Virus record (IMG/VR): IMGVR_UViG_3300031841_003180
Location: 1-20,333 of that record
DNA from: a virus
DNA length: 20,333 bases
Reading direction: 5' to 3' (one strand)
Numbering within the stretch: position 1 is the stretch's first letter; each line of letters starts with the position of its first letter. Of the stretch, positions 956 through 15,113 are shown one piece after another. The notes under the pieces are model-generated. The model had not been told where the DNA came from and did not search any database. It saw only the letters and a program-made list of their open reading frames with translations. Made by a program: the position numbers and the translations under genes.

Positions 956-1627
956 CTAGCTCCTGTGTCGATGTATGTTGTGATCGTTGTAGATAAGTTC
1001 AGCGGCAAAGAGGCCGGGCTGGCCTGATGCGGGCGCTGACACCGCATCGCAAGTCACGCGCACAGTCAGGTGCGTATACGACAGATCGGGCACGTTGATA
1101 CTCACAGTCTCGAGGCCCGCTACGTTGTCGAAGACGAGGTCTGACTTGAACGTCGTCGTTTGGTCTGGCGTCGTCGTTTGAGTTGCCCCGTCCTTGCGCC
1201 ACCAAACATCGACGGTAAACGTGCTGCTGTTCAGGCGCCCGCCGACAGGCCACAACAGCAGCGACAAGCGCACGTCAGCGCCGTTATTCATGGCGGCGGG
1301 GCGGCGCAGCGTCCAGCTCACGGCCTCTGTTGCAGCCATCTGATAACCGTGACTGCCGTTGTCCTCAACGGCAGTCGGCACTTTGTGAGTCACGCCAGAG
1401 CCGGCAATCGGTAGCTCGACGGCATTGAGCTGATCGCCAATGTGCTTAATCTCGATGCTGCCGTCAGAGCCGCGCTGCATTTGCACGCGGCTGTAAACAT
1501 CAAGCGTGCGCATACCCCGCCCCGATGCCCGCCGCTCGCGCGCTGAAGCGCTACGAATGCGTTGCGCGCCCTGAGGCGGGCGAGCCAGCAGCTGCTGTTG
1601 CCTTTGCCGTCGGGAGAACTGGCTCAT
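956..1627 (-). CDS. Tail-region structural protein with basic N-terminus and beta-rich C-terminus
   Basis: The start at 1627 is preferred because its ATG overlaps the nozzle stop as ATGA; a 19-residue extension to 1684 would lie inside the nozzle gene. The product is 223 aa. Residues 1-40 are very rich in Arg and Gln with few hydrophobics, suggesting a flexible arm that binds DNA or a partner. The rest alternates polar and hydrophobic residues (for example STFTVDVWWRKDG and LETVSINVPDLSYTHLTVRV), as in a beta-sandwich. It lies between the nozzle and the putative ejection proteins, so a role at the tail tip or as a nozzle-associated appendage is likely, but this is positional inference. No family was recognised. 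Confidence 0.78.
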   Translation of the reverse strand: MSQFSRRQRQQQLLARPPQGAQRIRSASARERRASGRGMRTLDVYSRVQMQRGSDGSIEIKHIGDQLNAVELPIAGSGVTHKVPTAVEDNGSHGYQMAATEAVSWTLRRPAAMNNGADVRLSLLLWPVGGRLNSSTFTVDVWWRKDGATQTTTPDQTTTFKSDLVFDNVAGLETVSINVPDLSYTHLTVRVTCDAVSAPASGQPGLFAAELIYNDHNIHRHRS

Positions 1628-4600
1628 CGACGCAGATCGCCTCCGTAGTCCTGCTTGGCGTACCCGCCTTCCCACGCCCAGCACTCGTCGGGTGACGCGT
1701 TACGCAAGCGCATAAACAGGTGATCACCGCTGATGCGCACAAGGCGTCGATCGTTACGACCGGGCTGCAGCGTGCCGCGCGCGACGGCATCGCCCAAGTT
1801 CTCGGGCTCATCAGTCGAGAAGAACTCGTAGTTGCAGCCGTTGCCGGTGGGCGACAACACGGCGCCAAACTCGGTCAGCTGCGTAGCCCCCTGATATGGC
1901 GTGTTAACCATAGGGCCAATCGTGACGTAGCTGTCGATGGCAACGTTGGTGCTGTTAGTTTTCTCGTCGCTGCGCGCAATGCTTGACACGCTGTCGGGCA
2001 AGCAACGAATGCGTCCATCTTCGCCCCCCAGCAGCAGCACGCGATCTTGCGGCAGGTCGCCGTTAGCGCGCCGCAGGCACGTCGGCTGAATGAGGTCCGT
2101 AGACGCGATACCGAAACGGTCCTTATGCCAAGACTGAGTGGGCACCTCGTAGAACCAATGATCGATCAGCGCCCCGCCGCCACCCTTGGGCACCTGCATG
2201 ATGTGCACGCCTTCGTCGACTGGGTTCCATGCTAGCTCGACTCGATAGCTCGTAAAGTCAATGCTGCGCAGCTGGTACTCAACGCTATTGAGGCTAACGC
2301 GCACAGGCCGACTTTGCGGCTGCATAAAGTACAAACCGCCATCGGACCCGAAAAACCACAAGTTGCCTTCAGGGTCCTTGCACCACGCGTGGCCGAACGC
2401 AACGCCCGTCTGGTCGCTAATGAGATCGAAAAAGCTGTTAGCCGCAAGCGGGTCGCCAGCCAGAGCCCACAGCGTTGAATCGCCACCAAACAGCAATAGG
2501 TCGTCCGTCCACGGGATAACCGCGTTGATGGCGTCGGGCACCTGCCCGGCTTGACTAGTAGACGACGAGACAGCGTCGATGACCGTAGGCACGTCTGGCA
2601 CAAAGTCCCAGTTGGTCGGATCGCCAACCTTGCTCATGTGCCAGGTGCCCGGAAAAGGCGCCTCACGGGCAATCACCAGCCGATCGCGCCAGTAGCTAAT
2701 CAGTTGACAGAACTGTGGAATAGATCCAGCGGACGCAACTAGCTCTTCAACATCACCATTGGCGCCTTTGACCGGGTTAAACGCCCAATACTTAATGCCG
2801 TCGGTGTAGTAAGCACGCTCGAACCCGACGGCTGAGTCGACGTAGCCGTTGGTGTCAAACACCGCGTTGTTAGTCGGCGCTGTGTACCCAGAGGCGGTGT
2901 GCTGCTTGAGGGTGTCGCCTGCTACCGCCGCGACGTACACCGTTCGACCCGTGCCGTTGAGGCCGGTGTCGTAATCGAGTGTGCGATAAGCAGCCATGGC
3001 GCCCATGACCTCGTTGCTAATGCCAACGCCCGTTTCGAAGCCTTCGCCAAAACGAGAAGGCAGCACATTTTGGCTGCGATCGATGGTCGTGTCTGTGCTG
3101 CCCGTGTCGTCAAGCTTGAACGCCGTCGAAGTTGTAGCGTAGTCGTACGGCACAACCAGCAGTCCTTTAGCTCCGCCAAAGTTGTAGGCATCGCCGCGCG
3201 GGGCAAAATAAGTGTTGCCCGTCTTGTCAACGTGAATTGTTTGTTCGCGCAACTGAGTAGCCGTCATGCCGCCCAGGTCATAGCTCCACGCCTCGGTAGG
3301 TTGCGTGTCGCCAGGGGCTGCATGCATTCGCATGTTGGGCGTTGCGGTTGCGTTGGTGAAGACGGTTTGCGCTGCGTCAGTCCGATCAGTCCAGGTGCCG
3401 TTAACCTGAACATAGCTAGTAGAGGTCAGCGTAGTGCGCACATCCGGGTGCGTGATCGTAAGCTCGCCGGTTGACGTACCGCTTGGCCAATCAGGCGTAA
3501 CGCGCGCAATCACGGAATTAGGCGCACAGGCGCTGTATAGCGGATTGCTCGAGCTGCCGTAGGTGGTGTCTTTGATGTACCACACGGCCATGACGTAGCA
3601 AGCGTCAATCAGGCCAGCCCACTCGGCAACAGTATTGACGGAGGCGCTGACGCTGCCCAACGAAACAGTAACGGTGCAAGAGGTGGCCGTAGCCGTCACG
3701 CGAACAGGGAAACCGCTACTTACATGACCGCTCACAAACTCGATGGTCAGAGTGCAAATTGTGCCATCGGACTCTCGCGGTCCCGCGACGACCAAAGAAT
3801 CGCCCGCAGTTGGCGAGCCGGTAATAGTCAACGTTTGTGTCGTGGCGGCATCCCAGCGCGTGTTGCCAATGCTGCTAAACAAAGCAACGCCAGAACTTGC
3901 AGCGTCCGGCACCGGTTGACAGCCTGAGCCCGTGCCGAGGAGTGCGCGCGTGTCGCCAATGTAGCTCCGACTGGCTGCGACGTTCCAGTTGGTGTCGTCC
4001 TCTGGGCGAAAGTTAAACGCCGTGACGCCCTGGCCGAAGGTTGTCATCGGAACTAGCGCCGTGCTGTCAAGGTCGTGCACAGCTGTGTACCCCCAGCGCT
4101 CATTGCTAATGCTAACGCACAGCAAGCTGCCCGATGCGTTGCGAGAGGTGCTGAGGCGACCGACAGCTCGATAGCCCGGATTCTTCCAATAACACGCTGA
4201 GGGCGGCGCGAACCTACTGTCGCCAGCGACATGCGAGCCGTCAAAATGATCAGCTAGGCTGCCGTCCTGCCAACGAGCGTCGTGAACGTGTATCTCCGAT
4301 AGCGTAATCGTGCCGACTTGCGTGTAGTCGATCACCTCGACAAGTTTGTATTGGCACGCGACATCTGAACTGCTTTCGGTGCGTGGCGTCCCCGCTGGAA
4401 CATCCGACACATCGAGGTCGTCGCGCTTAACAAGCAAAATGTACAGCTTGCCATTGAGCAGAACCATGTCGTGGATCTGCGAGCCAGTTTCCGTTGAGAT
4501 GTTGTGCTGGTCTACCAGAAACGGTTCCGGTTCAGAGTACAGGTCATAGACGAATAGCTGGATGCCCCTCGCGAATAGGAGGTAACCCAAGTCGTCAGGA

Positions 4601-5076
4601 AACGCAACGCGTGGTACATAGTCGGGTCCATCACTAGCAACAATGCTGGCGGTTTTGACTATTTGCATGTCCTCGTTGTAGACATGCATTATGCCGAATC
4701 CAACAGCCTCGGTGTATACGCAGAACTCGCCTGACGAATTGGATCGCAAGACGCGCTCTTGATCAAAAAAACTGTTGATTTCGGTGCCTTCGTGCTCAAC
4801 AGCTAGCGCTGTGCGCACACTTGAGCTGTCGCCCGTGTTGGCGCTGACCGGAATGACCGCGATGTTGCGGATCTTTTCGGTGCTGTTAAGCTGATCTTCG
4901 TTGTCGCGAAAGATCGACATCCCAGCGCGTTGTGCGCCGCGGAACCTGCCCGTGCGAGGGTCGCGCGTGCGCATGTTGCGCTCATCCCGAGAGGTCAACT
5001 CCTCCTGGAATGCATACCCGTACGTTTCACTAAGGCCCTTGGCCGGGTACGGGATGTAGATGTCTTCGCTTGCCAT
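1624..5076 (-). CDS. Tail nozzle (tail tubular protein B / T7 gp12-like), 1150 aa
   Basis: This is the distal tube of a short tail, through which DNA leaves the virion. The N-terminus has the pattern seen in nozzle proteins: PAKGLSE (11-17), then SRDERNMRTRDPRTGRFRGA (29-48). The C-terminal half carries propeller-like repeats, including LISYWRDRLVIA (792-803), FPGTWHMSKVGDPTNWDF (808-825), DDLLLFGGDSTLWAL (858-872) and GNLWFFGSDGGLYFM (904-918). T7 gp12 is about 790 aa, so this protein is much longer. Part of the excess is a Thr/Ser/Val-rich stretch at about 408-555 with no propeller signature, probably an inserted domain. The gene directly follows the adaptor (TGATG overlap), the usual adaptor-nozzle pair. 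The nozzle call is confident; the exact domain limits are not. Confidence 0.9.
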   Translation of the reverse strand: MASEDIYIPYPAKGLSETYGYAFQEELTSRDERNMRTRDPRTGRFRGAQRAGMSIFRDNEDQLNSTEKIRNIAVIPVSANTGDSSSVRTALAVEHEGTEINSFFDQERVLRSNSSGEFCVYTEAVGFGIMHVYNEDMQIVKTASIVASDGPDYVPRVAFPDDLGYLLFARGIQLFVYDLYSEPEPFLVDQHNISTETGSQIHDMVLLNGKLYILLVKRDDLDVSDVPAGTPRTESSSDVACQYKLVEVIDYTQVGTITLSEIHVHDARWQDGSLADHFDGSHVAGDSRFAPPSACYWKNPGYRAVGRLSTSRNASGSLLCVSISNERWGYTAVHDLDSTALVPMTTFGQGVTAFNFRPEDDTNWNVAASRSYIGDTRALLGTGSGCQPVPDAASSGVALFSSIGNTRWDAATTQTLTITGSPTAGDSLVVAGPRESDGTICTLTIEFVSGHVSSGFPVRVTATATSCTVTVSLGSVSASVNTVAEWAGLIDACYVMAVWYIKDTTYGSSSNPLYSACAPNSVIARVTPDWPSGTSTGELTITHPDVRTTLTSTSYVQVNGTWTDRTDAAQTVFTNATATPNMRMHAAPGDTQPTEAWSYDLGGMTATQLREQTIHVDKTGNTYFAPRGDAYNFGGAKGLLVVPYDYATTSTAFKLDDTGSTDTTIDRSQNVLPSRFGEGFETGVGISNEVMGAMAAYRTLDYDTGLNGTGRTVYVAAVAGDTLKQHTASGYTAPTNNAVFDTNGYVDSAVGFERAYYTDGIKYWAFNPVKGANGDVEELVASAGSIPQFCQLISYWRDRLVIAREAPFPGTWHMSKVGDPTNWDFVPDVPTVIDAVSSSTSQAGQVPDAINAVIPWTDDLLLFGGDSTLWALAGDPLAANSFFDLISDQTGVAFGHAWCKDPEGNLWFFGSDGGLYFMQPQSRPVRVSLNSVEYQLRSIDFTSYRVELAWNPVDEGVHIMQVPKGGGGALIDHWFYEVPTQSWHKDRFGIASTDLIQPTCLRRANGDLPQDRVLLLGGEDGRIRCLPDSVSSIARSDEKTNSTNVAIDSYVTIGPMVNTPYQGATQLTEFGAVLSPTGNGCNYEFFSTDEPENLGDAVARGTLQPGRNDRRLVRISGDHLFMRLRNASPDECWAWEGGYAKQDYGGDLRR

Positions 5077-6143
5077 CAGGACGGGCCTGCAGTCGAGTTG
5101 AAGTTGTAGAGGTGATCGTAACCGCGCCGTACAGTCATGGCTGCGCCGTTGCGCATCGAACCGATGTGCGCCGTGTCAGTCTTGTCGCGCTCAGCCGCGG
5201 CCTTAAACGACGCGCCCTGACGAATGCTCATCAGCCGCGTGTCCACGTCTGCCTCCGACTCGCGCTCATAACCACGAGCAATCGCTCGCACAAGCTGCAG
5301 GTACAGCGACTCGCACCATTGCGGCACCGCCACTAGCTGGTTGTCGCTTTCCAGCGCCTGCCACCCGCGCCGGTAGTACACCATGATGCGGTTGTCGTCG
5401 CTGACTGACGGCGTCGGCCACATTTCAAGCCGCGCTCGCACAGGGCCTAGGTTAACACCCGTATCGTGCTGCGTTGCTGTAATTGCTGCGGGGACCGTCA
5501 CGGTCTGGCTGTTGCCGCGCTCGCCCTCCTTCTGATGCGTTAGCGTGACAGTCGCGTTGTTGACGGTAGCCCTCAAGAACAGGCCCGGCGCATCGTTAAT
5601 GACCTTGGCCAGCGTTGTTGCGCTGTCTGCTGCCGTGGCTCCGATTTGCATGTAACGCGTTGTGGCGTCATCGTCATCGGTCGCTGCTACGGTCGTCTTG
5701 AAGTTGATCGTGACGCTAGGGTTGTAAGCGTCACTAATCGTCATGCTAGTCCCATTGACCAGGGCCCCAACCACTAGCGTCGTGCTCGCAGCAGCGCCTC
5801 GCGGGGCGTAAACAACAGCCGCGTGATACTCGAATGACGGCGCAGTTGCCAGGGCGCGCAACTCCAGCAAATGCGCCTGCGTGGTCATCCGAATGCCGGC
5901 GCTCAGGCCATTTTCCAATTGCAGCGCCATGATTTCGCGAAAGTCATCCGGCAGCCACACATAGTCTTGGTCCTTGGTAAGCGGCAGCGTTTGCTGAGCG
6001 CCCTCAAGCCAAGTCCAATGGTGCATGTTGCACAGGTACTCCCCCGCATCGTTGAGAATGCGGTAGGCGCCAATGCTCGGCACATCTACAGACGCCAGCG
6101 TGTGCCTAATGTGTGCAACGGCGTCTGAAGCAAGCAGAGTCAT
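5076..6143 (-). CDS. Head-tail adaptor (T7 gp11-like) with an inserted beta domain
   Basis: The adaptor ring joins the portal to the nozzle. Adaptor-like features are the aromatic helix end HHWTWLEG (41-48), LPLTKDQDYVWLPDDFREI (53-71), RLEMWPTP (238-245) before a strand MVYYRRGW (254-261), and a C-terminal helix with QWCESLYLQLVRAIARGYER (275-294). Known adaptors run about 165-230 aa; this one has 355. The excess sits between VVYAP (110-114) and VRARLEMWP (235-243). It has the layout of a small beta module found in many phage tail proteins: SVTINFKTTV (143-152), then ADSATTLAKVIND (172-184), then VTLTHQKEGERGNS (199-212). The ATG overlaps the upstream stop (TGATG), and its own stop overlaps the nozzle ATG. 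Adaptor assignment is strong from position and motifs; the insertion is inferred. Confidence 0.86.
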   Translation of the reverse strand: MTLLASDAVAHIRHTLASVDVPSIGAYRILNDAGEYLCNMHHWTWLEGAQQTLPLTKDQDYVWLPDDFREIMALQLENGLSAGIRMTTQAHLLELRALATAPSFEYHAAVVYAPRGAAASTTLVVGALVNGTSMTISDAYNPSVTINFKTTVAATDDDDATTRYMQIGATAADSATTLAKVINDAPGLFLRATVNNATVTLTHQKEGERGNSQTVTVPAAITATQHDTGVNLGPVRARLEMWPTPSVSDDNRIMVYYRRGWQALESDNQLVAVPQWCESLYLQLVRAIARGYERESEADVDTRLMSIRQGASFKAAAERDKTDTAHIGSMRNGAAMTVRRGYDHLYNFNSTAGPS

Positions 6144-7564
6144 CAGGACCAGCTGCCGTCAGAGTTTTGCGCGCCGATCGCCAGCACCTCTAGCGATGTA
6201 TTGGCAGATCCGCTAGCGCCGCTCACGTCTAGCTTGATGCGAGGGTAAGTGCCATCGTTTGCCTGAACCTCCAGCGGGCATTTATACAAAAGTGCCGCGG
6301 ACGCCGCGGTAATGACAACGCCTAGGTGGCACAGCGTGACGGAGTCGCTTGCGTTTAGTTCCAGCTCGACCGTCATAAGAGCGCCCGTACCTCCCATCTC
6401 TTTGACCGACACCCACAGCCCTTTAGTGCCTACCGGCAGCGCAGGCGTGTTGTCGGTCCCAGAGGCTGTCGTCACCGTCAGGGTGTCGTGGTAAACGTTG
6501 ATGTTGTCGGTGTCGACGGTGATGACGCCATCGACGTTGACCAGCGGAGAGTTAGAGTAAGCCATGACGGTCCAAGTGTGGGTCAGGGACTGAAACGCCC
6601 CAGGGTTGACAATGTTGCCGGTTCGGGTTTGGCCGGTGATGTCCTCACGCGGCACGTTAGAGTTGACATCCGGCCCAACGCCCACAAGGCGCGCGTCGTT
6701 GCCGTCAGCCGTAACAAGCTTGTAGGTTTGTGTGCTGTAGATAACGTTGTTGCCGTCGCTCGCAACGGTGGGGTCGACGCCAACGTCCCAGGTTTGACCG
6801 CCTGCCAGCTCATCAGTCGCAAACGGGTTGGTCGCACCGCCGACATTGTTAGTGCCGGTTTGGGTCAGGGTCCCTGAGTGCGCTGAGCTGTTGTAAAAGT
6901 AAGACCGCAGGCTGAACACAAGGTTGTTAGTAAGCTCAAGAACAATGTCGGTGCTTGAGCTGCTGCCAACAATGATGGCGTGGGACTCCGTGTCGAAGGT
7001 GTTGTTGATAATCTTGTAGTGCGCCTCAGCCCGAGTGCCACGAACATCTACGCCGCGCGAAGACTCCGTGACACAAAGATTGTTTTGCACGAAGACCGGC
7101 GCTGCCGCGCTACCACCTTGGTCCAAGACAATACAGTTGCCGATAATGGCTCGCATCGCGCAGCCGTCTACGACAACCCCGACGGCAGTCACGTCGTTGA
7201 CGTTGACGCAATTGCTAGTGGTGGCAGTAAAGGACAGGCCCTGAACCCGCGTGTACTTGTCGTTGATGGTACACACCAGGGATCCCGCGTCGCGGGTGAT
7301 AAGAGCGCCGCTGTCAATGTGCCCACGCCGGACGCCTTCGGCGGCGCGATACGTCACATTCCGAGTTTCGTCGGCGTTGATGCCTGAGGTTCTAATTTGC
7401 CAATAGCCGTCGTATTTGCCGGTGTCGATCTCAAAGACGATGGCAACATCTAGCGCAACCAAGTCGGTGCCGCCCGCAATGGTGGCAACGTCAGCCTCTG
7501 CGAGCTGCGGCGTAGCATAGTCGCCGCCGCTGGGCTTAATCGTCTTCGTGATAACCGTGACCAT
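6143..7564 (-). CDS. Right-handed beta-helix protein, probable fibre or spike
   Basis: The N-terminus (TKTIKPSGGDYATPQLAEAD, 6-25) is the entry motif common to pectate-lyase-like beta-helix proteins. Residues about 100-245 show short repeated rungs, each with a ring of Asn, Val and Thr: VQGLSFTATTSNCVNV, NCIVLDQGG, VQNNLCVTESSRGVDV, YKIINNTFDT, LELTNNLVF. The stretch PREDITGQTRTGNIVNPGAF (305-324) matches the closing segment seen in many bacterial beta-helix proteins. A separate beta-rich domain fills about 330-473. The gene sits between decoration and adaptor genes, where some phages encode head fibres; a receptor-binding or polysaccharide-degrading spike is the alternative. No catalytic residues could be identified. 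It overlaps both neighbours at TGATG junctions. Confidence 0.82.
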   Translation of the reverse strand: MVTVITKTIKPSGGDYATPQLAEADVATIAGGTDLVALDVAIVFEIDTGKYDGYWQIRTSGINADETRNVTYRAAEGVRRGHIDSGALITRDAGSLVCTINDKYTRVQGLSFTATTSNCVNVNDVTAVGVVVDGCAMRAIIGNCIVLDQGGSAAAPVFVQNNLCVTESSRGVDVRGTRAEAHYKIINNTFDTESHAIIVGSSSSTDIVLELTNNLVFSLRSYFYNSSAHSGTLTQTGTNNVGGATNPFATDELAGGQTWDVGVDPTVASDGNNVIYSTQTYKLVTADGNDARLVGVGPDVNSNVPREDITGQTRTGNIVNPGAFQSLTHTWTVMAYSNSPLVNVDGVITVDTDNINVYHDTLTVTTASGTDNTPALPVGTKGLWVSVKEMGGTGALMTVELELNASDSVTLCHLGVVITAASAALLYKCPLEVQANDGTYPRIKLDVSGASGSANTSLEVLAIGAQNSDGSWS

Positions 7565-7947
7565 CAGACACCCGCCTTGTCGGTGCGTAGGGCCACGATC
7601 TCGGCCCAGGTCTTGGTAATGGTGGGGGCGCCGGGATCATCGTGCGCCACCCATGTAAGGTTTGCCGCGTCAGCCAGCGTGACCTGATACCGGCGCTTGC
7701 CTAGGATCTCGCGCCCCGCGTCAGGGTCCTGCGGGTCAATCAGATCGCCCTCCCACGGGTCCATGAGCGCTCGCACGTCGGGGTCCGTGTGATCCTTGTC
7801 GGAGCAATAGACAAACGCGAAGCCGCTGTCCTGCGGCACCACGGCGTTGCCCGGGAACAGGTGCCCGTCTAGCACTTGGACAACATCGTTATCCGTATAC
7901 GACAGCCCGCCGCTGGGGGCCGCTGTGATAATGAGGGCGTGGGCCAT
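7564..7947 (-). CDS. Small conserved-looking structural-region protein, 127 aa, function unknown
   Basis: The protein has a beta-rich N-terminal half (ALIITAAPSGG, DVVQVLDGHLFPGNAVVP, FAFVYCSDKD). An acidic, proline-rich middle with WEGDLIDPQDPD follows, then a C-terminal part with KRRYQVTL and TKTWAEIVALRTDKAGV. I do not recognise the family. The ATG at 7947 has no clear Shine-Dalgarno sequence and lies 57 nt after the decoration gene, separated from it by a strong GC-rich hairpin. It is joined to the beta-helix gene by a TGATG overlap, so it may be co-made with that protein, perhaps as a head-surface partner. Confidence 0.75.
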   Translation of the reverse strand: MAHALIITAAPSGGLSYTDNDVVQVLDGHLFPGNAVVPQDSGFAFVYCSDKDHTDPDVRALMDPWEGDLIDPQDPDAGREILGKRRYQVTLADAANLTWVAHDDPGAPTITKTWAEIVALRTDKAGV

Positions 7948-7964
7948 GTCGTAGTTGGGGGTGT

Positions 7965-7990
7965 GGCGCGGGAGCCGGAGCCCCCGCGCC
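7965..7990 (-). promoter_or_regulatory. GC-rich hairpin between decoration gene and the 127-aa gene
   Basis: GGCGCGGG (7965-7972) pairs perfectly with CCCGCGCC (7983-7990) around a 10-nt loop, in the 57-nt gap after the decoration gene. Read on the minus strand it is followed by a C-rich, not U-rich, stretch, so it is not a standard intrinsic terminator. It could protect the 3' end of the abundant capsid/decoration message, mark a processing site, or reduce downstream expression. Confidence 0.5.
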
Positions 7991-8004
7991 GTTGTCAGCC
8001 TAGA

Positions 8005-8484
8005 TCAGGCGTCCTGGTTGCCCGAGAAGCCGTTGAGGCCGTCGAACAGGACCTTCTTGACGTCGCCGTCACCGCCAGCCTCAAGGGCGTAGCCGATGAC
8101 CTTCTCGCCGTTGGCGGCCACATCCAGCGCAAGGCTGGCAGCCGTAGCGGCGAGAGCGTCACCAACTGCGGTGCCAGCACCGTCGTACTCGGCGTCAACG
8201 ATGCCGGAGAGGGCGAACTTGCCCTCAGCGCCGATGGCGACATCCTCAAGCGCGCACACGAAGATGCCGCACTTGATGTCGTCAACGCCATCAGCACCAG
8301 TACCGGGGGCGGCAGTCGTGTCGAACACCACCACGGTTCCCTCGGGGCTGAGGTCCGTGATGGTCCGCGACACGGCCACGACCTGACCCTTGGTGATGGC
8401 CGCATGAGCCTTCAGGGTGACGGTGTGGGTGCGAATGTCGATGCCCTTCGCGCCGGGCTTGGCGATTCCGAAGAAACTAGCCAT
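8005..8484 (-). CDS. Putative head decoration / capsid cement protein, 159 aa
   Basis: This short, Ala/Gly/Val-rich, beta-rich protein directly follows the capsid gene. Its pattern of strands and turns (AAITKGQVVAVSR, GTVVVFDTT, CGIFVCALEDVAIGAEGKFA, LSGIVDAEYDG, ANGEKVIGYALEAGGDGDV) resembles the DUF2190-type capsid cement fold, in which a modified coat value is followed by repeated G-x-V strands. Such proteins bind and stabilise the mature capsid. The start is firm: AGGAGGT lies seven nt before the ATG in a 19-nt gap after the capsid stop, implying strong expression. The decoration role comes from position, size and composition; a specific family match is not certain. Confidence 0.74.
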   Translation of the reverse strand: MASFFGIAKPGAKGIDIRTHTVTLKAHAAITKGQVVAVSRTITDLSPEGTVVVFDTTAAPGTGADGVDDIKCGIFVCALEDVAIGAEGKFALSGIVDAEYDGAGTAVGDALAATAASLALDVAANGEKVIGYALEAGGDGDVKKVLFDGLNGFSGNQDA

Positions 8485-8500
8485 TGTGTTTACCTCCTAG
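8485..8500 (-). promoter_or_regulatory. Near-consensus ribosome binding site of the decoration gene
   Basis: On the minus strand the sequence reads TAGGAGGTAAACACA followed by ATG, with AGGAGGT seven nt from the start. It is among the best Shine-Dalgarno matches in the cassette and predicts high expression. Confidence 0.8.
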
Positions 8501-8503
8501 GGA

Positions 8504-9646
8504 TCAGAAGCCAGAGATGGCGCCGGACGGGTAGACAATGCCCTGACGCTGACGCGACCGGCAAACGAAGTTGTACCAGCTGTCCACCGGAACGATGGTG
8601 GTGAAAGGCTGGTTCGGGTGGCGCATCGACGGGTGCTGGTACATGTACCGCGTCGTGTGGAAAACGAACTTGAGGTAGTTCGCGTTAATGAAGTAGTAGC
8701 GACCGCCAGTAGCGGTAGCACTCGTTTCACTTCCGGTGCCAGGGTAGCCCGCGTACTCGTCCAGCTTAGGCGCGTACACAAGGTCGATACCAGCGTACTT
8801 GGGTTGCATGTACGCAGGGTCTTGACGCGAGGCGGTGACGAACGTGTCCTGCGACGCACGCAGCAGCTGCTGGTAGGCAGTCTGGCCGCGCTTGGAGCAG
8901 GCAATGAACATCGCGTTCAGCGACGGGTCATCGAAGTACTCCTGATGCGACGGGGGCGGCACGAACTGCACGTCCAGGAACATGTTGTCGAACGCGCGAA
9001 TCAGGTTGCCCGCGTCGTCCGGCGTCAGGTTCGCGTAGGTCTGCGTTTGCGGCTGCCACTTAGAGTACGTGGCCGCGCTCAGACCCTGAAGGTCGTTGCT
9101 GCTCGAGTTCCAGTAGACGCCGTTGGTTTCCTCGTTGATGAACGCCGGGAGGCTGTACGGCTTGGTGCCGTTCGTGTCCTCCATGTCGGTTTTGCTGGGG
9201 ACCTCAAACAGAGCGTCCTCCATGCCGTTCATGATCGAGGTCCAGAGTCGCTGCTCTTTGATGCGCTTCAGCCGCTTGTAGGCGGTGTGGCGCGCAGAGC
9301 GACCCAGGCCGGTGCCGACGTTGAGTTCAACTTCAGCATCGGTGTAGGCCATGTGGTCCACACAGAAGCGCCAGTTGATCTCCCAGTTCTCGACGACCTG
9401 GGGGTTTTCCCAGGTGAAGGTCTGGTTCGGCTCGTAGTACTGGAAGGTGCTCTCCTCATCGAACAGGATGGTGTCCTTGATGGACGAACCGCCCTGCACG
9501 GTTTCAGAGGGTCCCTTGCCCCGAAGAAAGCGGCGAAGAAGGTAGTTGTTCTTGCACGCCTCGTTAACAACGTCCTCGGCGCTCGTCAGGTACGACGGGC
9601 CGGTCGTGTCGATGAAGTCAGTAAAAGTCGAAAGTGCAGAAGCCAT
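8504..9646 (-). CDS. Major capsid protein, 380 aa
   Basis: Length and position between scaffold and decoration genes are right for a podovirus coat protein. Features resembling coat proteins of marine and environmental podoviruses include the N-terminal helix with EACKNNYLLRRFLRGKGP (29-46) and the loop-strand region YYEPNQTFTWENPQ (70-83) followed by NWEINWRFCVDHMAYTDAEV (87-106). A charged helix with RHTAYKRLKRIKEQRLW (119-135) and an aromatic C-terminus with TTIVPVDSWYNFVCRSRQRQ complete the picture. An HK97-type fold is expected from this gene neighbourhood but cannot be proved here. The ATG is preceded by AAGGAG at six nt, inside a 21-nt gap, one of the few gaps in the operon. A 347-codon open frame on the opposite strand is a compositional shadow. 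Confidence 0.9.
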   Translation of the reverse strand: MASALSTFTDFIDTTGPSYLTSAEDVVNEACKNNYLLRRFLRGKGPSETVQGGSSIKDTILFDEESTFQYYEPNQTFTWENPQVVENWEINWRFCVDHMAYTDAEVELNVGTGLGRSARHTAYKRLKRIKEQRLWTSIMNGMEDALFEVPSKTDMEDTNGTKPYSLPAFINEETNGVYWNSSSNDLQGLSAATYSKWQPQTQTYANLTPDDAGNLIRAFDNMFLDVQFVPPPSHQEYFDDPSLNAMFIACSKRGQTAYQQLLRASQDTFVTASRQDPAYMQPKYAGIDLVYAPKLDEYAGYPGTGSETSATATGGRYYFINANYLKFVFHTTRYMYQHPSMRHPNQPFTTIVPVDSWYNFVCRSRQRQGIVYPSGAISGF

Positions 9647-9667
9647 CTCTTACTCCTTTGAGATGCC

Positions 9668-10639
9668 CTAGCGGCCAGTCAGCCTGCGTGCGCGCTCCCG
9701 TGCATCTGGAGCACCACTTTCCAGAATCGCGAGGATTTCGTCCTCAAGCTGGGAAGGGTCCTTTTCGGGCACGGGCACAACGCCGTCAGAACGTGACGGG
9801 ACGCCATTAGATCGGTAAGTACGAACAGTATCTTTGGCCTCTTGGGCCTGTTGGCGCAGCTCCTCGCGGAACTCAAACGCAATAGCGTCCTCCATGAGCG
9901 CCCGCATGTCGCTGACGCCCTGTTCTTCCGCAAGCTTAGTCATTCGACCGACGACGCGGCCAAAGCCCTCGCTATTGGGATCGGACACTTGCGGATATTG
10001 CTCGACAAGCTGTTGCCGTGTCGCTTCAACTTGCTGTCGCGCCATCCACTCCTGCATCCCTGCAAGCTGTTGCTTGAAGGGCTCGACCACAGCTGCGTAA
10101 GAAGCAGCCAGCAGGCTCGTGCTTTCATCGTCTAGATCGACAGCCTCAGCAAACATTCGAGCGGCGTTTTGAAGGTGATCGTCGGTGACATCCTTCGGGG
10201 TGGCCTCTGCAACTGCGGGCTCCTCGGGTTGCTGACGACTCTCCTCATCCGCTTCACTTGGCTGCGGCTGCTTAGCCTCAGAAAGCTTTCGGTCAACGTC
10301 CGTCTGCACCTTCTTGCGATGGGCAGCCAGACGGGCAATGGCCTCGTCGCTAAGCGCGGCTAGGTCATCTTTCGAAAACCCATCGCGCCGCAGGACGCTC
10401 CAGGCCTCTTCAATGTCTCCCGTGTCGGAGACTTGCTCGGTTTCAGCAGCAGGCGCAGCCTCTGCAGCTGCCTCTTCTGCCGCCGGAGCCTGCGGTGCAG
10501 GCTGTTCATCGTCAGGGTCATCCCCGTCGATTTGCATGAGGACTGCATCCTCGCGCTCATCGGCAAGTTGTTCAGCTGTCGCCTGGGGCGCAGCGGTCGT
10601 CTCGGGGGCCTGCTCAGGCTGGGGAGTGGTTTCAGTCAT
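9668..10639 (-). CDS. Capsid scaffolding protein, 323 aa
   Basis: It lies between the portal-side small genes and the capsid gene, the usual scaffold position. The protein is acidic, rich in Ala, Glu, Gln and Pro, with a disordered N-terminus (about 1-75) and alternating helical stretches. A long helix at about 180-225 contains EPFKQQLAGMQEWMARQQVE. A charged C-terminal helix (LEDEILAILESG then ARERARRLTGR) could be the coat-binding end, since scaffolds of P22 and T7 also use basic C-terminal helices. It would assemble the procapsid with the portal and leave before packaging. The ATG overlaps the previous stop (TGATG). There is no enzymatic motif, and no protease gene is visible nearby. Confidence 0.83.
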   Translation of the reverse strand: MTETTPQPEQAPETTAAPQATAEQLADEREDAVLMQIDGDDPDDEQPAPQAPAAEEAAAEAAPAAETEQVSDTGDIEEAWSVLRRDGFSKDDLAALSDEAIARLAAHRKKVQTDVDRKLSEAKQPQPSEADEESRQQPEEPAVAEATPKDVTDDHLQNAARMFAEAVDLDDESTSLLAASYAAVVEPFKQQLAGMQEWMARQQVEATRQQLVEQYPQVSDPNSEGFGRVVGRMTKLAEEQGVSDMRALMEDAIAFEFREELRQQAQEAKDTVRTYRSNGVPSRSDGVVPVPEKDPSQLEDEILAILESGAPDARERARRLTGR

Positions 10640-10836
10640 CAGAGTTCGTCGTATTCGATGGTGATGCCCTCTTTGTCACGCGCACGGGCCATGCTGTTCT
10701 CAATTTCGCGCCGGTTGGTGAACACCGGGCGTCCCTTGCTATCGAACTGGCCCTTGTGATGCTTCCAGTTGCGAGGCAGCTGGTTGCTGGCAAAGTTCGG
10801 CGTCTTCTTGACGATGATGTTGAAGCGTTTGCTCAT
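10639..10836 (-). CDS. Small conserved-type phage protein, 65 aa, unknown function
   Basis: The product starts SKRFNIIVKKTPNF and ends with an acidic tail. Its middle, GQFDSKGRPVFTNRREIENS, followed by MARARDKEG, resembles a segment found in short uncharacterised phage proteins and loosely the C-terminal part of FmdB-like small proteins, but no zinc-binding cysteines are present. The start is firm: AGGAGG lies about six nt before the ATG, which overlaps the upstream stop as ATGA. The stop overlaps the scaffold ATG. It belongs to the run of small genes between portal and scaffold. Its role is not known. Confidence 0.75.
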   Translation of the reverse strand: MSKRFNIIVKKTPNFASNQLPRNWKHHKGQFDSKGRPVFTNRREIENSMARARDKEGITIEYDEL

Positions 10837-11117
10837 TTCTTCCTCCTGGTTTTGCGCGCCTTGCCGGGGCTGATGCGCGCAGATCGTGTTGCTTTGCGGG
10901 CTGCGGGCGTGTTCTTGGCTACTTGCTTGCCCGCTCTGGTTGCCTTTCGCTTGGCAGCGGTGGTTGCAGCATACTGACTGCTGCTTAGCTTTTTAATGGC
11001 CGCCGACGGCATGTAGCGCTCGCCTGTCGCCTTAGTCCCCTGGGTCGAAGGCTTACCAGATTTGGTACGCCATTTCTCCTTAGTCCAGTTCTTCAGGCTG
11101 CGCTGCGGCTTCTTCAA
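10833..11117 (-). CDS. Small very basic protein (DUF5872-like motif), TTG start, 94 aa
   Basis: I set the start at a TTG (11117) that overlaps the preceding TGA as TTGA. GGAGGAGG lies nine nt upstream, the best ribosome binding site in this part of the operon. An upstream ATG at 11183 would overlap the previous gene by 70 nt and add residues unlike the rest. The protein begins KKPQRSLKNWTKEKWRTKSG and continues with KPSTQGTKATGERYMP and SSSQYAATTAAKRKATRAGK, then a Lys/Arg-rich tail. The W-x-T-K-S-G, G-E-R-Y-x-P and Y-A-A-T-x-x-x-K pattern recalls the DUF5872 family of phages and large viruses; that match is from memory and should be verified. Strong positive charge suggests binding to DNA or to the acidic scaffold. 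Confidence 0.8.
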   Translation of the reverse strand: MKKPQRSLKNWTKEKWRTKSGKPSTQGTKATGERYMPSAAIKKLSSSQYAATTAAKRKATRAGKQVAKNTPAARKATRSARISPGKARKTRRKK

Positions 11118-11302
11118 TCGCGGTAGCCTCCTCCGGCCTGCTTGTACTGTTGAGCCAGCATCTGAGCCTTGCGTGCCGACCATTGGCCGGGCTTGCCGCC
11201 TTTGCCGCCAGCCTTGATGCGCTCAAACAGACGCTTCCGCATCGTGGGGCGGGTGTAGTTGCCCGCCTCGTTCACCCGGCTCTTACTTTTCGATTTGGCC
11301 AT
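11114..11302 (-). CDS. Small basic phage protein (SARKAQMLAQQYK motif), 62 aa
   Basis: The ATG at 11302 is chosen because the protein then begins MAKSKSKSRVNEAGNY and stays uniformly basic; an extension to 11362 adds a stretch of Thr/Ala/Pro that overlaps the upstream gene more. Characteristic segments are GNYTRPTMRKRLFERIKAG, GGKGGKPGQWSARKAQ and MLAQQYKQAGGGYR. I recall very similar short proteins in many marine podoviruses, always of unknown function. It overlaps the upstream membrane-protein gene by 20 nt and ends in the TTGA overlap with the next gene. A packaged DNA-binding or scaffold-binding role is possible because of the charge; this is inference. Confidence 0.78.
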   Translation of the reverse strand: MAKSKSKSRVNEAGNYTRPTMRKRLFERIKAGGKGGKPGQWSARKAQMLAQQYKQAGGGYRD

Positions 11303-11480
11303 GGAGCTCGTGGTTGCAGTAGGGGCAGCTAGGGTGAAAGGTGCCAGCGGCAATTGCGTCAACGCGAGCAGCGATCAGCACCATCTGTTTGTCGGTGTGC
11401 AGCACCGTGGTGAAGATCCATGTGACCATGCCCAGCACCAGGGCGGTCATGATCGTGTTAAGATCAATCTTGATCTGCAT
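11283..11480 (-). CDS. Single-pass membrane protein with a CxxC motif, 65 aa
   Basis: The ATG at 11480 overlaps the previous stop (TAATG), which is why it is preferred to a GTG six nt upstream. Residues 7-28 (LNTIMTALVLGMVTWIFTTVL) form one hydrophobic helix. A short helix (about 30-45) and a His/Cys tail with HPSCPYCNHELHG (49-61) follow. The CPYC pair with neighbouring histidines could bind a metal or form a disulphide. One membrane segment and small size would suit a holin, spanin or accessory membrane protein, but no endolysin is adjacent. Its place among basic head-region proteins is unexpected for a lysis gene. Function unknown. Confidence 0.74.
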   Translation of the reverse strand: MQIKIDLNTIMTALVLGMVTWIFTTVLHTDKQMVLIAARVDAIAAGTFHPSCPYCNHELHGQIEK

Positions 11481-11776
11481 TACCACTTAACCCTGTTGGC
11501 CCAGTATGCCGCGGACATCTTGCCCTTAGCGATGTTCTTACCGTGGCGCGCTTTGAATGACTTGCGCTTGGCCTTCATGCGATCCGACTCGCCCGGCTTC
11601 GGCTTGCCCGCAGTCTTGGCGCCCTTCTCACCAAATCGGATCGTCTTGACCTGATCCCCCTGCTTAGCCACGACGATGTGGCTCTTCTTGGGGTGCCCAG
11701 GAGTCCGCTTAGGCTTGTTGTAGCCAGACACGCCTGCGCGCGCGAGGCGCGAGTCTTTCTTCTTAGGTGTTGCCAT
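11480..11776 (-). CDS. Small very basic phage protein (SFKARHGKNIAKGKMSAAYW motif), 98 aa
   Basis: The product is strongly basic. It begins ATPKKKDSRLARAGVSGYN, continues with KRTPGHPKKSHIVVAK and KTIRFGEKGAKTAGKP, and ends with SFKARHGKNIAKGKMSAAYW and ANRVKW. I recognise this as a type of short protein that recurs in podoviruses and other environmental phages, usually annotated only as hypothetical. The middle segment, IVVAKQGDQVKTIRFG, looks like a small beta-hairpin. The ATG overlaps the portal stop (TAATG) and the stop overlaps the next ATG, so it is translationally coupled to the portal. Possible roles are DNA binding in the head or a portal or scaffold partner; none is shown by the sequence. 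Confidence 0.82.
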   Translation of the reverse strand: MATPKKKDSRLARAGVSGYNKPKRTPGHPKKSHIVVAKQGDQVKTIRFGEKGAKTAGKPKPGESDRMKAKRKSFKARHGKNIAKGKMSAAYWANRVKW

Positions 11777-13674
11777 TACATTGCGGAGTTCATGCCCTGG
11801 ACGCCTTGCGGCGGCCCGGTCTGCGCCTGCTGCTGCATAGCTTGCAGCATTGCGGCCATTTCTTGCCCGGCCATGGGCACCACTTTCGACGGCGGAGCGC
11901 CAGTCGCAACGCCCTTCGGCGCATCCTTGCCCATGCGCGGCTGAAGGCTTTCAGATTGCGCAATGACCGCTGCTTGCCTCTGCATTGACAAGTCTTCGGC
12001 TAGCCGTTCCAGCAGCTTGGCGTCAACCAGCTCGACCATGTCGGGCGCATTCATGGCGTTGCCGATTTTGCCGAAGTGGTCCTTCCACGGGTAGTCGGGG
12101 AAAGCCTGCATCAACTGCAGACTGTTCAGCAGCATCGTGTGCATCTCCATGGCGCGCTTTTGCGCAAGCCCCTCCGACGCACGCTCCATGCTGTAGGGCT
12201 CGATCTCAAGCTCAAGATCCTCAAAGCTGTAGTCAGCCCCTTCGTGTCCTCCGCCCTGGAACACCAGCTCCGTATCAGGCGGCAAGCTCAGCTCTTTCAT
12301 GGCATCCATGTCCAGAGGGAACTTGATCGTGTCGTCGTGATACATGTAGAAGGCGACACGCGTCAGCACGGAAACCGTCGCGTCCGTGAAGCTCTGCTTG
12401 ATGAACGCAATACGCGTGTTGGCCGCCTCTGACGCAATGCTGTGCTCTGTAGCGGTGCCGGAACCGCTGACGCTGCCGCGCAACGCCTCGTCCATGCCCA
12501 GGACGCGGTCAGCGCGTTGACGGCAGGTTGCAATCCAGTTGGCCTGCTGCTCAGTTTGGCCGCCCAGCACAAACTCTTGGACCAGCGCTTTGCCGTCCTC
12601 GAACGGGACGACAGCTACATAGTCGTGCTCGACGTTCTTTACGAGCTGAGCGGTGCGCGGGTCGTTGACGCCGACGATCCGCTTGTGCTTGAGCATGCTC
12701 TGGCTGGCCGCCATCACATGATCGTTGAGATCGGTAACTTGAGCCTCGACTGCGCACAGCGGCGACAGGGGGTAGACGCGATCCGGAACTTTGTACGCGC
12801 CAAACACCACATACGGGCCCGTTTCCGGGCCGTAGTACGGTCGTGGCTCACGCACGAAAGCGCTCTGGGCGTCGTCGTCGTCGTAGCTGCCCAGCGGTTG
12901 ATTGCAGCCCAAGGTGTAGATTGTCCCGTGAAAGCCAGACTTGGCTCCGGGGCTGTCATCTAGCTCCACCTCAGGGACGTAGATCTCGTAGCAGTAGACC
13001 TCGTTGCGATTGGGCGTGCCCTCGTACCCGTAACCGTGCTTGCGGTTGGGGTCGTCTTGCTGGCCCAGCGACTCAATGGCCTCTGCATTCCAGCCCTGCT
13101 CAGGCTGGGCTTTTGCTAGGTCAATCAGGTCCTCTTTGTCCATTCGCCACATGTGCCCCATGAAGCGCGCACTTTCGATGCGCTCAGCTTCCGGGTCAAT
13201 GAAGAAGCGTCGCGGGGCAATCCGCTCGCAGGCTGGCCAGGCTGGAGTTTCGGACGCTTTGTAGGGCGTGCTGTTTGGGCTCGCGTATTTCTTCTTGTGG
13301 TCAGGGCGCACCATGCAAACGCCGTAGCCCAGCAGCATGTCGCTGGCCACCTCGACTAGCATTTTGCGCAGCTTTGCGTCCCGAGCCCAACGGTTCATGC
13401 CGTGGCGCAGGGCCTCTGCTACGTCTTGCTGAGTGCCTGGGCGCCTGGAGCTGACCTGCACGCGCGGGTTGTCAAACACTAGCCGGGGCACCATCAACGA
13501 GACGTACTCGTAGTAGGTGTTCTCAGGAGAGTACTGGTTGGTGTCGCCAGTTCCGTCGTAGTACGGGCCGTGATACCGCGCGACCTTGTCTTCGTAGCCC
13601 TCAAGGTGCTTATCGCGGTAGGTGATAGCCGAGTCAATTTCGGCCATGAGGGCCTGGGGCGTTGTCTTGAGCAT
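11776..13674 (-). CDS. Portal protein, 632 aa
   Basis: The portal dodecamer forms the DNA channel at one capsid vertex and docks both the terminase and the adaptor. The gene lies directly after the large terminase (TAATG overlap, GGAGG ten nt before the ATG). The N-terminus has a helical stem-like segment followed by ARYHGPYYDG (32-41), SPENTYYEYVSLMVPRLVF (49-67) and NPRVQVSSRRPG (69-80), a pattern common in portals of short-tailed phages. APRRFFIDPEA and a later helix rich in Gln and Met fit the wing and stem. The C-terminus is low-complexity (EMAAMLQAMQQQAQTGPP), like the flexible barrel or tail of P22-size portals. Length agrees with podovirus portals of about 530-725 aa. No truncation or frameshift is visible. 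Confidence 0.9.
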   Translation of the reverse strand: MLKTTPQALMAEIDSAITYRDKHLEGYEDKVARYHGPYYDGTGDTNQYSPENTYYEYVSLMVPRLVFDNPRVQVSSRRPGTQQDVAEALRHGMNRWARDAKLRKMLVEVASDMLLGYGVCMVRPDHKKKYASPNSTPYKASETPAWPACERIAPRRFFIDPEAERIESARFMGHMWRMDKEDLIDLAKAQPEQGWNAEAIESLGQQDDPNRKHGYGYEGTPNRNEVYCYEIYVPEVELDDSPGAKSGFHGTIYTLGCNQPLGSYDDDDAQSAFVREPRPYYGPETGPYVVFGAYKVPDRVYPLSPLCAVEAQVTDLNDHVMAASQSMLKHKRIVGVNDPRTAQLVKNVEHDYVAVVPFEDGKALVQEFVLGGQTEQQANWIATCRQRADRVLGMDEALRGSVSGSGTATEHSIASEAANTRIAFIKQSFTDATVSVLTRVAFYMYHDDTIKFPLDMDAMKELSLPPDTELVFQGGGHEGADYSFEDLELEIEPYSMERASEGLAQKRAMEMHTMLLNSLQLMQAFPDYPWKDHFGKIGNAMNAPDMVELVDAKLLERLAEDLSMQRQAAVIAQSESLQPRMGKDAPKGVATGAPPSKVVPMAGQEMAAMLQAMQQQAQTGPPQGVQGMNSAM

Positions 13675-15113
13675 TAGCTGTAAACCTCCGCGTGTACGTC
13701 GCTGTGCCCGAGAAGGTCGCCAAGGCTGCCGTCGGGGTATTCGGGGATCGAAACCTCCATGCTCATGTCACGGTTCCACATGAACATGGCTGCATAACGC
13801 AGGCAGTCCATGGCGTGATCGCTGCATGTGGGGTCGGGGCGCTCTTTGATGGGCGCACCGTCGCGGCTCTTGGCCCACACATAGCTGGGAATCTCTTCCT
13901 CTAGGCAAGTCGGCTTCTTTGCGTCAATGCGTGCCTTGTCCTGCACAAGCTGGCTGCCTCTGCAGATGTAAATGCGCGGCCCGTTGTCGACCTTTGAGAG
14001 TCCCCATCGCACCATGTCAATGCCGCTGCGAATGGGGTTACGAGCCTTCCGGGCAATACGGTTGCCGTCACGGCCCCGCGCAGATCCTAGCCGGTCGTTG
14101 AACAACCGAATGTACTCGGGCTCGCTGGGGTCGCACACGAGAGCGGACAGCGGGTAATCCTCGTTGGCTTCAAGCACTTGCTCGGCCCACCAGTCGCTGT
14201 TCTCGCCGGTCTTGTAGATTTCGAGAACGCGGTACATGCGATCATCGTTGACAGCCCAGATCTGCAGGCAGCCAGGGTGGCGCAGGCCTTTATCGTAGGC
14301 GCCAAAGTACCACTTGGGCTCGGGCATGTCCTCGAAGTCCACCATGTGAACTGCGGGATCCCAATCCTCGTAGATGATGCCCTCTTCGCTCGCCCATTTG
14401 CCTTCGTAGAGGTTGGCGCGACGCGCCCCCGTCAGTTTGGCGAGGATGCCGAGGACGTATGCTTCGCCATTCTTGGTCCATGTGCCCTTCTTGTGGTCGA
14501 AGTAGGACGGGTTGTCCTCGTGCCGCGACAGCAGGCGCACCCGCTTGTCTTGCCTGTGGCGATCAGGAACCTCGCGGAACCCCTGCGGGAAGTGCGTGTT
14601 CAGCCAATGGAACTCGCCCGCCGGGTTGGTGTCGGCAACCCGCATTTGCCACGGCATTTTGAAGTTGCGATTGGCGCGCGCCAGCCATTCCCAGGTGTCC
14701 GCCGTAATCTCGCGGGCCTCAAAGACGGCAATCACGTCATATTGCGTGGAGAACGTCTTAGCGGGCTTGTCCAGACCACCGACCACAATGTGCGAGCCGT
14801 TGGGGTAGTGGTAGTTCTGCCGCGTGTTGCGGCTGCTCGTGCCGTGGATAGCGGGATGGTTCTCCCACAGCACGTCTTGCTCGAAGGTGACAAGCACCGA
14901 TTCGGTCAGGGACTCCCGCGTTTGACGCAGCAGCAGGCAGCGGATGCCCGCATAGCGCTCACACAGGAAGTTGATGTACTCGAGAAGCGCGCGAGTTTTG
15001 CCCGTACCGGCAGGCCCCTCCATCAGCAGCTCGTTGGCTTGCAAGTTCCACAGCTCTCGTGCAGCGCCATGCGGCGTGTACTCATGCACGACCTCTGTGA
15101 CTTGCTCGCTCAT
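13674..15113 (-). CDS. terL: Terminase large subunit (packaging ATPase and nuclease), 479 aa
   Basis: This motor pumps DNA into the procapsid and cuts the concatemer. The ATPase half shows Walker A MEGPAGTGKT (31-40), a Walker B-like YDVIAVFEA (125-133, with E132 as likely catalytic carboxylate and Phe in place of the usual Asp), and the coupling motif ADTNPAG (160-166). The nuclease half shows an RNase-H-like set: Asp274 in GAYDKGLRHPGCLQIW, Asp328 in ALVCDPSEPEY, and Asp432/Asp436 in SDHAMDCLRYA. The length matches the family. The ATG overlaps the upstream stop as ATGA, with no separate ribosome binding site. The portal gene follows directly. The call is secure from motifs and neighbourhood; the headful or cos mode cannot be told. 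Confidence 0.95.
   Translation of the reverse strand: MSEQVTEVVHEYTPHGAARELWNLQANELLMEGPAGTGKTRALLEYINFLCERYAGIRCLLLRQTRESLTESVLVTFEQDVLWENHPAIHGTSSRNTRQNYHYPNGSHIVVGGLDKPAKTFSTQYDVIAVFEAREITADTWEWLARANRNFKMPWQMRVADTNPAGEFHWLNTHFPQGFREVPDRHRQDKRVRLLSRHEDNPSYFDHKKGTWTKNGEAYVLGILAKLTGARRANLYEGKWASEEGIIYEDWDPAVHMVDFEDMPEPKWYFGAYDKGLRHPGCLQIWAVNDDRMYRVLEIYKTGENSDWWAEQVLEANEDYPLSALVCDPSEPEYIRLFNDRLGSARGRDGNRIARKARNPIRSGIDMVRWGLSKVDNGPRIYICRGSQLVQDKARIDAKKPTCLEEEIPSYVWAKSRDGAPIKERPDPTCSDHAMDCLRYAAMFMWNRDMSMEVSIPEYPDGSLGDLLGHSDVHAEVYS

Follow-up and report, generated by a model that had tools for sequence, protein, structure and literature searches.

A discrete insert, probably related to a tail-sheath domain, in the head-tail adaptor of uncultured short-tailed phages

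Introduction

Adaptors are usually seen as conserved plumbing. The window analysed here (the whole stretch of DNA, a virus record of 20,333 bases) belongs to a group of uncultured short-tailed phages in which an adaptor ring joins head to tail, and its adaptor appears too long for that part alone: is the excess a domain of its own or ordinary length variation, where else does it occur, and what might it do at the neck of the particle? A sequence-only reading had proposed that a module known from phage tail proteins interrupts the adaptor's beta domain. Its claims are taken up below where the results bear on them.

Materials and methods

Relatives were gathered with the terminase (59 loci) and then by an adaptor profile scan (49 loci). 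The adaptor alignment has 40 rows (the window, 12 terminase-derived loci and 27 of the 49 profile-scan loci); an earlier, smaller one had 13. Left out among the terminase-derived loci were L039 and L049, which nearly duplicate L037 and L048, and L011 and L047, which are partial, together with 22 profile-scan loci: contigs already represented (L061, L067, L069-L071, L073, L074, L076-L083 and L092, with L082 and L092 partial), near-copies (L063, L075, L086) and fragments (L084, L087, L102). The core tree has 39 rows with both insert types removed, L068 being left out for its missing start; the insert alignment has 17 of the 19 insert rows, without L045 and L072. An insert profile was run over 6,020 six-frame segments from 114 records. 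Absence from a list of fold matches was given no weight as evidence.

An SU10/T7-like adaptor and its neighbours

Against Pfam SU10_adaptor the window's adaptor scores 34.1 bits, above the gathering score of 27. Its gene lies between the capsid gene and a probable nozzle gene (so called from place, size and relatives), an order that fits an adaptor of an SU10/T7-type podophage; the immediate neighbours are genes for a 473-aa protein and for the 1150-aa nozzle protein, and the cluster also holds terminase, portal and capsid genes (Table 1). Pfam and PHROG searches gave no family match for the nozzle ORF. Its tblastn matches in relatives are mainly to residues 1-171 and 711-1150, the middle being mostly without a match.

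Table 1. Features of the adaptor region, in positions of the window.
Feature	Position	Strand	Basis
Probable nozzle gene, 1150 aa, adjoining the adaptor gene	1624..5076	-	ORF; assigned by place, size and relatives
Head-tail adaptor gene, SU10/T7-like, 355 aa	5076..6143	-	Uninterrupted ORF; Pfam SU10_adaptor; fold matches to solved podophage adaptors
Adaptor core, C-terminal part, residues 232-355	5079..5450	-	Predicted model and 40-row alignment
Inserted domain, adaptor residues ~116-231	5451..5798	-	Absent from 13 insert-less relatives; separate alpha/beta domain in model; tail-sheath and FliD matches
Adaptor core, N-terminal part, residues 1-115	5799..6143	-	Predicted model and 40-row alignment
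Place of the B-type insert of relatives, between residues 58 and 59	5967..5972	-	40-row alignment; nothing inserted in the window

The 473-aa protein, encoded just upstream of the adaptor at 6143-7564, is a candidate fibre or spike. It has relatives in L005, L011, L018, L033 and L055, with two to three homologous stretches in L005, L011 and L033 by tblastn; among 14 relatives with a full-length adaptor, none had a tblastn match to it, and in those of the 14 that were examined other small proteins take its place. Two further oddities of the relatives may be recorded here: in L055 the portal match is in three pieces by tblastn (4781-6681), perhaps through frameshifts, and L110 has an ORF of 3,478 aa on the minus strand (3644-14080), perhaps for a giant internal virion protein.

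By tblastn at E<=1 against 50,697 phage records, from which records of the window's own genome or very close to it were possibly excluded, the adaptor had no homologue; used alone it matched nothing among viral contigs, and a search of genome contigs gave no relative. Against PDB sequences its matches were at chance level (best E 0.36; adaptor profiles, best E 0.48 and 1). No phage record was matched by the portal, nor by the adaptors of L097 and L090 (respectively without an insert and with the B-type insert described below), and the insert alone had a single non-significant match there, at E 3. The terminase matched 270 records, every one below 60% identity.

A discrete insert shared by one clade of adaptors

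Adaptors in the 40-row alignment have one of three layouts. In 19, including the window's, 112-131 residues stand between the motifs VVYAP and RLEMWPTP (layout A); 13 are without an insert and have a total length of 232-247 aa; and in the remaining 8 the extra residues, 72-83 of them, form a different insert at a second hairpin of the dock (layout B). The window's VVYAP ends at residue 114 and its RLEMWPTP starts at residue 238, so that the insert does lie between them, as had been proposed. With 116 residues in this region of the window as against 2-5 in the 13 insert-less relatives, and with 18 further rows keeping an insert at the same place, which is beyond chance, a discrete insert in the adaptor is confirmed. 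The insert profile is also matched by two partial adaptors outside the alignment, those of L047 (E 5e-16) and L087 (E 2e-4).

The sequence-only reading had the right object with somewhat wrong edges. It had given the insert residues of about 115-235, for which about 116-231 is the better estimate, and its coordinates for the domain, 5379-5793, take in about 24 residues of the core (232-255). The excess length, put at 120-150 aa over T7 gp11 or P22 gp4, amounts to 108-123 aa against the 13 insert-less relatives, 105 aa against SU10 gp11 (250 aa) and about 160 aa against T7 gp11, whose length is here that of its solved chains (190-196 aa). The same length in all known homologues would have told against an insert; 13 relatives are without it.

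Layout A rows (18 of the 19 are in the core tree) form one clade with support 99/97, and account for a single change on the tree. Insert-less and layout B rows are intermixed there, with three changes each and some long branches. Since the adaptor chains in the list of fold matches are 181-243 aa long, the insert-less state is probably the older one.

The B-type insert stands before the LPxDF strand in L085, L088, L089, L090, L093, L095, L098 and L101. A model of the L089 adaptor (pLDDT 78.3) gave weak fold matches for it, to the lambda tail tip (Z 7.2) and phage endosialidases (phi92, Z 6.9 and E 0.02), and family searches found nothing below E 0.045; it is therefore left unnamed.

Predicted fold and its resemblances

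The model of the window's adaptor, made from the 40-row alignment (pLDDT 80.5, pTM 0.59), is a helix bundle with a beta "dock" domain between helices, as in SU10/T7-type adaptors. Helices at residues 5-16 and 23-40 are followed by the first dock strands up to VVYAP; the chain then leaves the dock at one hairpin for an excursion (about 117-232) of strands and one helix (171-184) that makes a domain of its own, and returns to the last dock strands (RLEMWPTP) and the C-terminal helices, which lie between 275 and 322. Blocks of the insert have pLDDT 76-94, save for 63 at residues 201-210. Residues 329-355, where a C-terminal segment embracing the portal would be expected, are below 50. With a pTM this modest, the model is an uncertain guide to how core and insert are placed relative to each other, and it does not fix the direction in which the insert points.

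Core and insert resemble different proteins. The best match of the core is an adaptor chain, 9k09_d (Z 13.9, rmsd 4.2, 205 residues); by source, its Z scores are 13.9 for cyanophage A4, 13.1 for Pa223, 12.5 for KHP30, 12.3 for SU10 and 9.4 for T7. The insert matches residues 91-186 of the A-1(L) tail sheath (8kee_C: Z 10.7, rmsd 2.4, 89 aligned residues, 28% identity), the sheaths of PhiTE (Z 10.2), Milano (9.4) and Mu (9.3), flagellar-cap FliD (Z 8.3-8.8; at best rmsd 2.3 over 96 aligned residues) and a flagellin (Z 8.2). In Foldseek the best adaptor row and the best sheath row both have E 9e-5. The model thus has two domains, as the sequence-only reading had it; one continuous domain would have told against that reading.

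Sequence profiles agree with these matches in part. Scanned alone, 9 of 17 inserts matched the tail-sheath PHROG 165 at E<=0.1 (best 3.8e-6; window 7.5e-5), as did none of the 13 insert-less adaptors, and together with the sheath folds this bears out the proposal of a module known from phage tail proteins. The Pfam sheath domain PF17481 was matched by the window's insert alone among the 17, at 18.8 bits, under the cut-off of 31.4; Flagellin_IN was matched by 7 of the 17 (best E 0.0015), the window's not among them; and single inserts also weakly match unrelated Pfam families. With sequence in only partial agreement and the Pfam score below its cut-off, the insert is best called a likely relative of the tail-sheath extra domain, not a filed member of that family. 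For the SU10_adaptor family itself the insert-less members gave 12 matches out of 13 at E 0.01, the insert-bearing ones 4 out of 13 at E 0.1. Alignment by profile to SU10 gp11 is too weak (E 0.009 with a probability of 4%; in a second comparison, E 0.14) to relate the insertion hairpin to the SU10 fibre dock loops.

Fast divergence and probable exchange and copying of the insert

Among the 171 pairs that the insert-bearing rows make, all but one have an insert less similar than the core; between the window and the other rows the core is 44-70% identical and the insert 15-45%. The contrast is sharpest in close relatives, in pairs picked by hand, with p values (Fisher) uncorrected for that choice. 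L044 and L072 differ at none of 239 core residues, with a core dS of 0.07 as against 0.59 in the insert, and the insert excess has p 1.3e-10 at synonymous and 6.5e-13 at nonsynonymous sites; for L031/L037 the values are 3.2e-4 and 1.4e-8. In L025/L056 the excess is in nonsynonymous sites only (p 5.6e-5; synonymous p 0.077), and L044/L045 have little (p 0.16 synonymous, 0.037 nonsynonymous). The raised synonymous rate favours exchange by recombination over selection on single residues. Trees point the same way for L031, which goes with L037 in the core tree (99/92) and with L053 in the insert tree (92/89, or 86/87 once more rows are added). Insert dN/dS is 0.12-0.46, below 1 wherever computable, with which relaxed constraint plus recombination would also fit.

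In its behaviour the insert thus resembles an exchangeable module. Recombination extends to the core, which is a mosaic too: its parts on either side of the insert have very different dS in L031/L053, L058/L053 and L058/L031, and for L031/L053 it is the insert that has the greater similarity.

Does the insert follow other variable DNA of these phages? L031 and L037, compared over about 13 kb, stand for the most part at 95-100% identity; this falls to 82% in the capsid gene, to 87-88% in the adaptor insert and to 92% in parts of the nozzle, and it also drops at the far upstream end. The middle of the capsid protein (window 8504-9646), at about residues 129-320, is an island of divergence in L031/L037, in L044/L045/L072 and in L025/L056, and the small genes between capsid and adaptor genes in L044, L045 and L072 are almost wholly different despite the otherwise close relation of these phages. 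Between L044 and L045 almost nothing of the stretch from capsid gene to adaptor gene is alike, and the insert is still 96-98% identical. For the variable capsid part (residues 129-320) dS is 0.617 in L044/L045 and 0.197 in L044/L072; for the insert it is 0.095 and 0.59. In this one trio, then, the insert moves independently of both the upstream DNA and the variable capsid part, and the idea that it tracks either is weakened to that extent.

The module also occurs outside the adaptor. Besides the adaptors, the insert profile strongly matched (E 7.9e-20) the nozzle ORF of L027 (10949-14266). Over 128 aa this copy has 46% identity with the insert in the L027 adaptor, to which it is sister in the tree (95/85; 92/85 with four more distant rows), both nesting within the L027/L066 pair (95/92; 96/95 with the four extra rows). 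The simplest reading of these trees is that the module was copied from adaptor to nozzle in the L027 lineage. A candidate copy in the window's own nozzle (residues ~402-508) was dropped, with E 0.12 and no match in the six-frame profile scan. Weaker matches (E 1.4e-4 to 5.7e-3), to be taken as leads, fall within the nozzles of L093 and L101 and, in L031, L032, L034, L035 and L044, within a large ORF upstream of the terminase; tree positions are unsure for those that were placed, and the two upstream ORFs scanned, of L031 and L044, had no PHROG match.

Discussion

The fast divergence of the insert, the insert-focused changes in two close pairs, the tree conflict for L031 and the nozzle copy are new. 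The best overall explanation, to which we would give a probability of about 0.6, is an adaptor of the T7/SU10 type with a gained module in its dock, for which an exposed contact domain is the likeliest role. An ancestor of this uncultured clade would have gained, probably once, a compact alpha/beta module of a kind present on tail sheaths and flagellar caps; seated in a hairpin turn, it would leave the adaptor ring still able to assemble and the core free to keep its usual job of joining portal to nozzle. Twelve copies would then stand on the outside of the neck: the channel of one known adaptor is too narrow for them (40 A at its narrowest in T7, according to the accessible text of PMC6702177), and the core is fixed while the insert varies.

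What would such a ring of modules do? A tentative answer is that they are accessory contact domains varying with the host surface, for example through weak binding to glycans or envelope. A wider and more doubtful version would make the adaptor ring a variable surface and its dock hairpins cassette sites (two sites, two module types), with modules recombined and also passed to the nozzle as copies; the diversity of the twelve adhesion domains on the neck would then arise apart from that of capsid and fibres. Among roles, host-surface contact is favoured over a brace for the neck, and that over a holder for fibres. As a brace, the insert would fasten the ring onto the capsid or onto adjacent subunits and steady the head-tail joint, its sequence drifting because the fold alone mattered. 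Purifying selection on the insert is in keeping with this, as are the attachment domains of the RcGTA and phage R4C adaptors, which bind the capsid in the accounts consulted (PMC7296036, PMC10276861), and the part proposed for sheath domain II of phage 812 as a stabiliser of the sheath disk (PMC9230969, in the portion available). It is nevertheless rather unlikely: within the trio L044, L045 and L072 the variable capsid part is closest in a different pair from the insert (this is one trio, and the insert could still bind constant surfaces of the capsid), the L027 copy is in the nozzle, a protein expected further from the capsid, and the RcGTA paper, as far as its accessible text goes, states that no adaptor of T7 type had been shown binding to a capsid (PMC7296036).

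The sequence-only reading had put forward fibre holding or protection of the collar as possible roles. A further place for a tail fibre or spike to dock seems less likely again. It would suit an insert within the dock domain, described as holding fibres in T7, SU10 and P-SCSP1u in the texts at hand, and the candidate fibre or spike of 473 aa is encoded just upstream, with its relatives in five loci; yet that protein is without a tblastn match in the 14 relatives with full-length adaptors, the insert stays nearly the same in L044 and L045 where the DNA before the adaptor does not, and the adaptors of T7 and SU10, from what could be consulted of PMC6702177 and PMC9509320, dock fibres without such an insert. 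The T7-type fibre N-terminal family was found in none of 10 records, possibly fragments, by a scan in which none of 14 control genomes exceeded the cut-off either. Could the module be a passenger, spread by recombination among tail genes and tolerated in a permissive hairpin, with no selected role? Its absence from some relatives, the signs of recombination and the copy in a nozzle are what one would expect, but every one of the 19 rows in the insert-bearing clade has it at one and the same place, and this, with a dN/dS below 1, makes the idea improbable. Ordinary length variation in one continuous adaptor domain, with no separate module, is very improbable indeed: adaptor lengths do vary and the pTM is modest, but the sharp alignment gap, the separate fold matches of core and insert and the occurrence of the module in another protein, the L027 nozzle, largely refute it.

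The window's adaptor looks less like plumbing than like the carrier of an exchangeable, tail-sheath-like module, one that links short-tailed and contractile-tailed phages at the level of domains. Should it make contact with the host, the neck would join the places at which that contact is tuned. The relatives of A-type, B-type and insert-less layout make a natural comparison set.

Comparison with known systems

The closest counterparts of the core are SU10 gp11 and T7 gp11, which share the helix bundle with its beta dock and a gene near those for capsid and nozzle. They differ in length, the listed solved adaptor chains being too short at 181-243 aa to hold the module, and for SU10 the accessible text describes protruding fibre dock loops and no further domain (PMC9509320). 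T7 and SU10 adaptors already possess the dock, so the window's insert is an addition to it. The RcGTA and R4C adaptors are alike in having a beta domain outside the capsid, and the RcGTA paper includes the T7 adaptor with those that have an attachment domain; from the parts of those papers available, the beta domain (N-terminal and Ig-like in R4C) makes the contact itself, whereas the window has a further module inside a dock-type domain.

For the insert the nearest counterpart is the extra domain of myophage sheaths (Phage_sheath_domII; A-1(L), PhiTE, Milano, Mu), with fold matches of Z 9.3-10.7 and a weak sequence match, in a contractile sheath instead of a short-tail adaptor and with the window's score below the Pfam cut-off; the matched stretch of A-1(L), 91-186, also differs from its domain II as published, 364-460 in the text seen. 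According to the portion of PMC9230969 consulted, sheath extra domains lie away from the tube, with stability or adsorption as proposed roles. FliD D2-D3 with Flagellin_IN is a less certain counterpart: FliD matches in fold (Z 8.3-8.8) and Flagellin_IN matches 7 of 17 inserts, not including the window's. The insertion domain of the XM1 sheath is itself reportedly similar to FliD D3 (PMC10457771, seen in part); these are flagellar-cap and sheath proteins, and the window's is an adaptor. PMC10575957, PMC10966104 and PMC11915804 were also consulted in part.

In the open-access literature, largely consulted without full text, no description of an insert of this kind in an adaptor was found. Among the matches listed from BFVD, 18 of 50 are proteins of 283-614 aa aligned over at least 320 columns (rmsd 12-23), and one of these 18 long rows is named as a head to tail adaptor; the design of an adaptor with an insert may be commoner than has been described.
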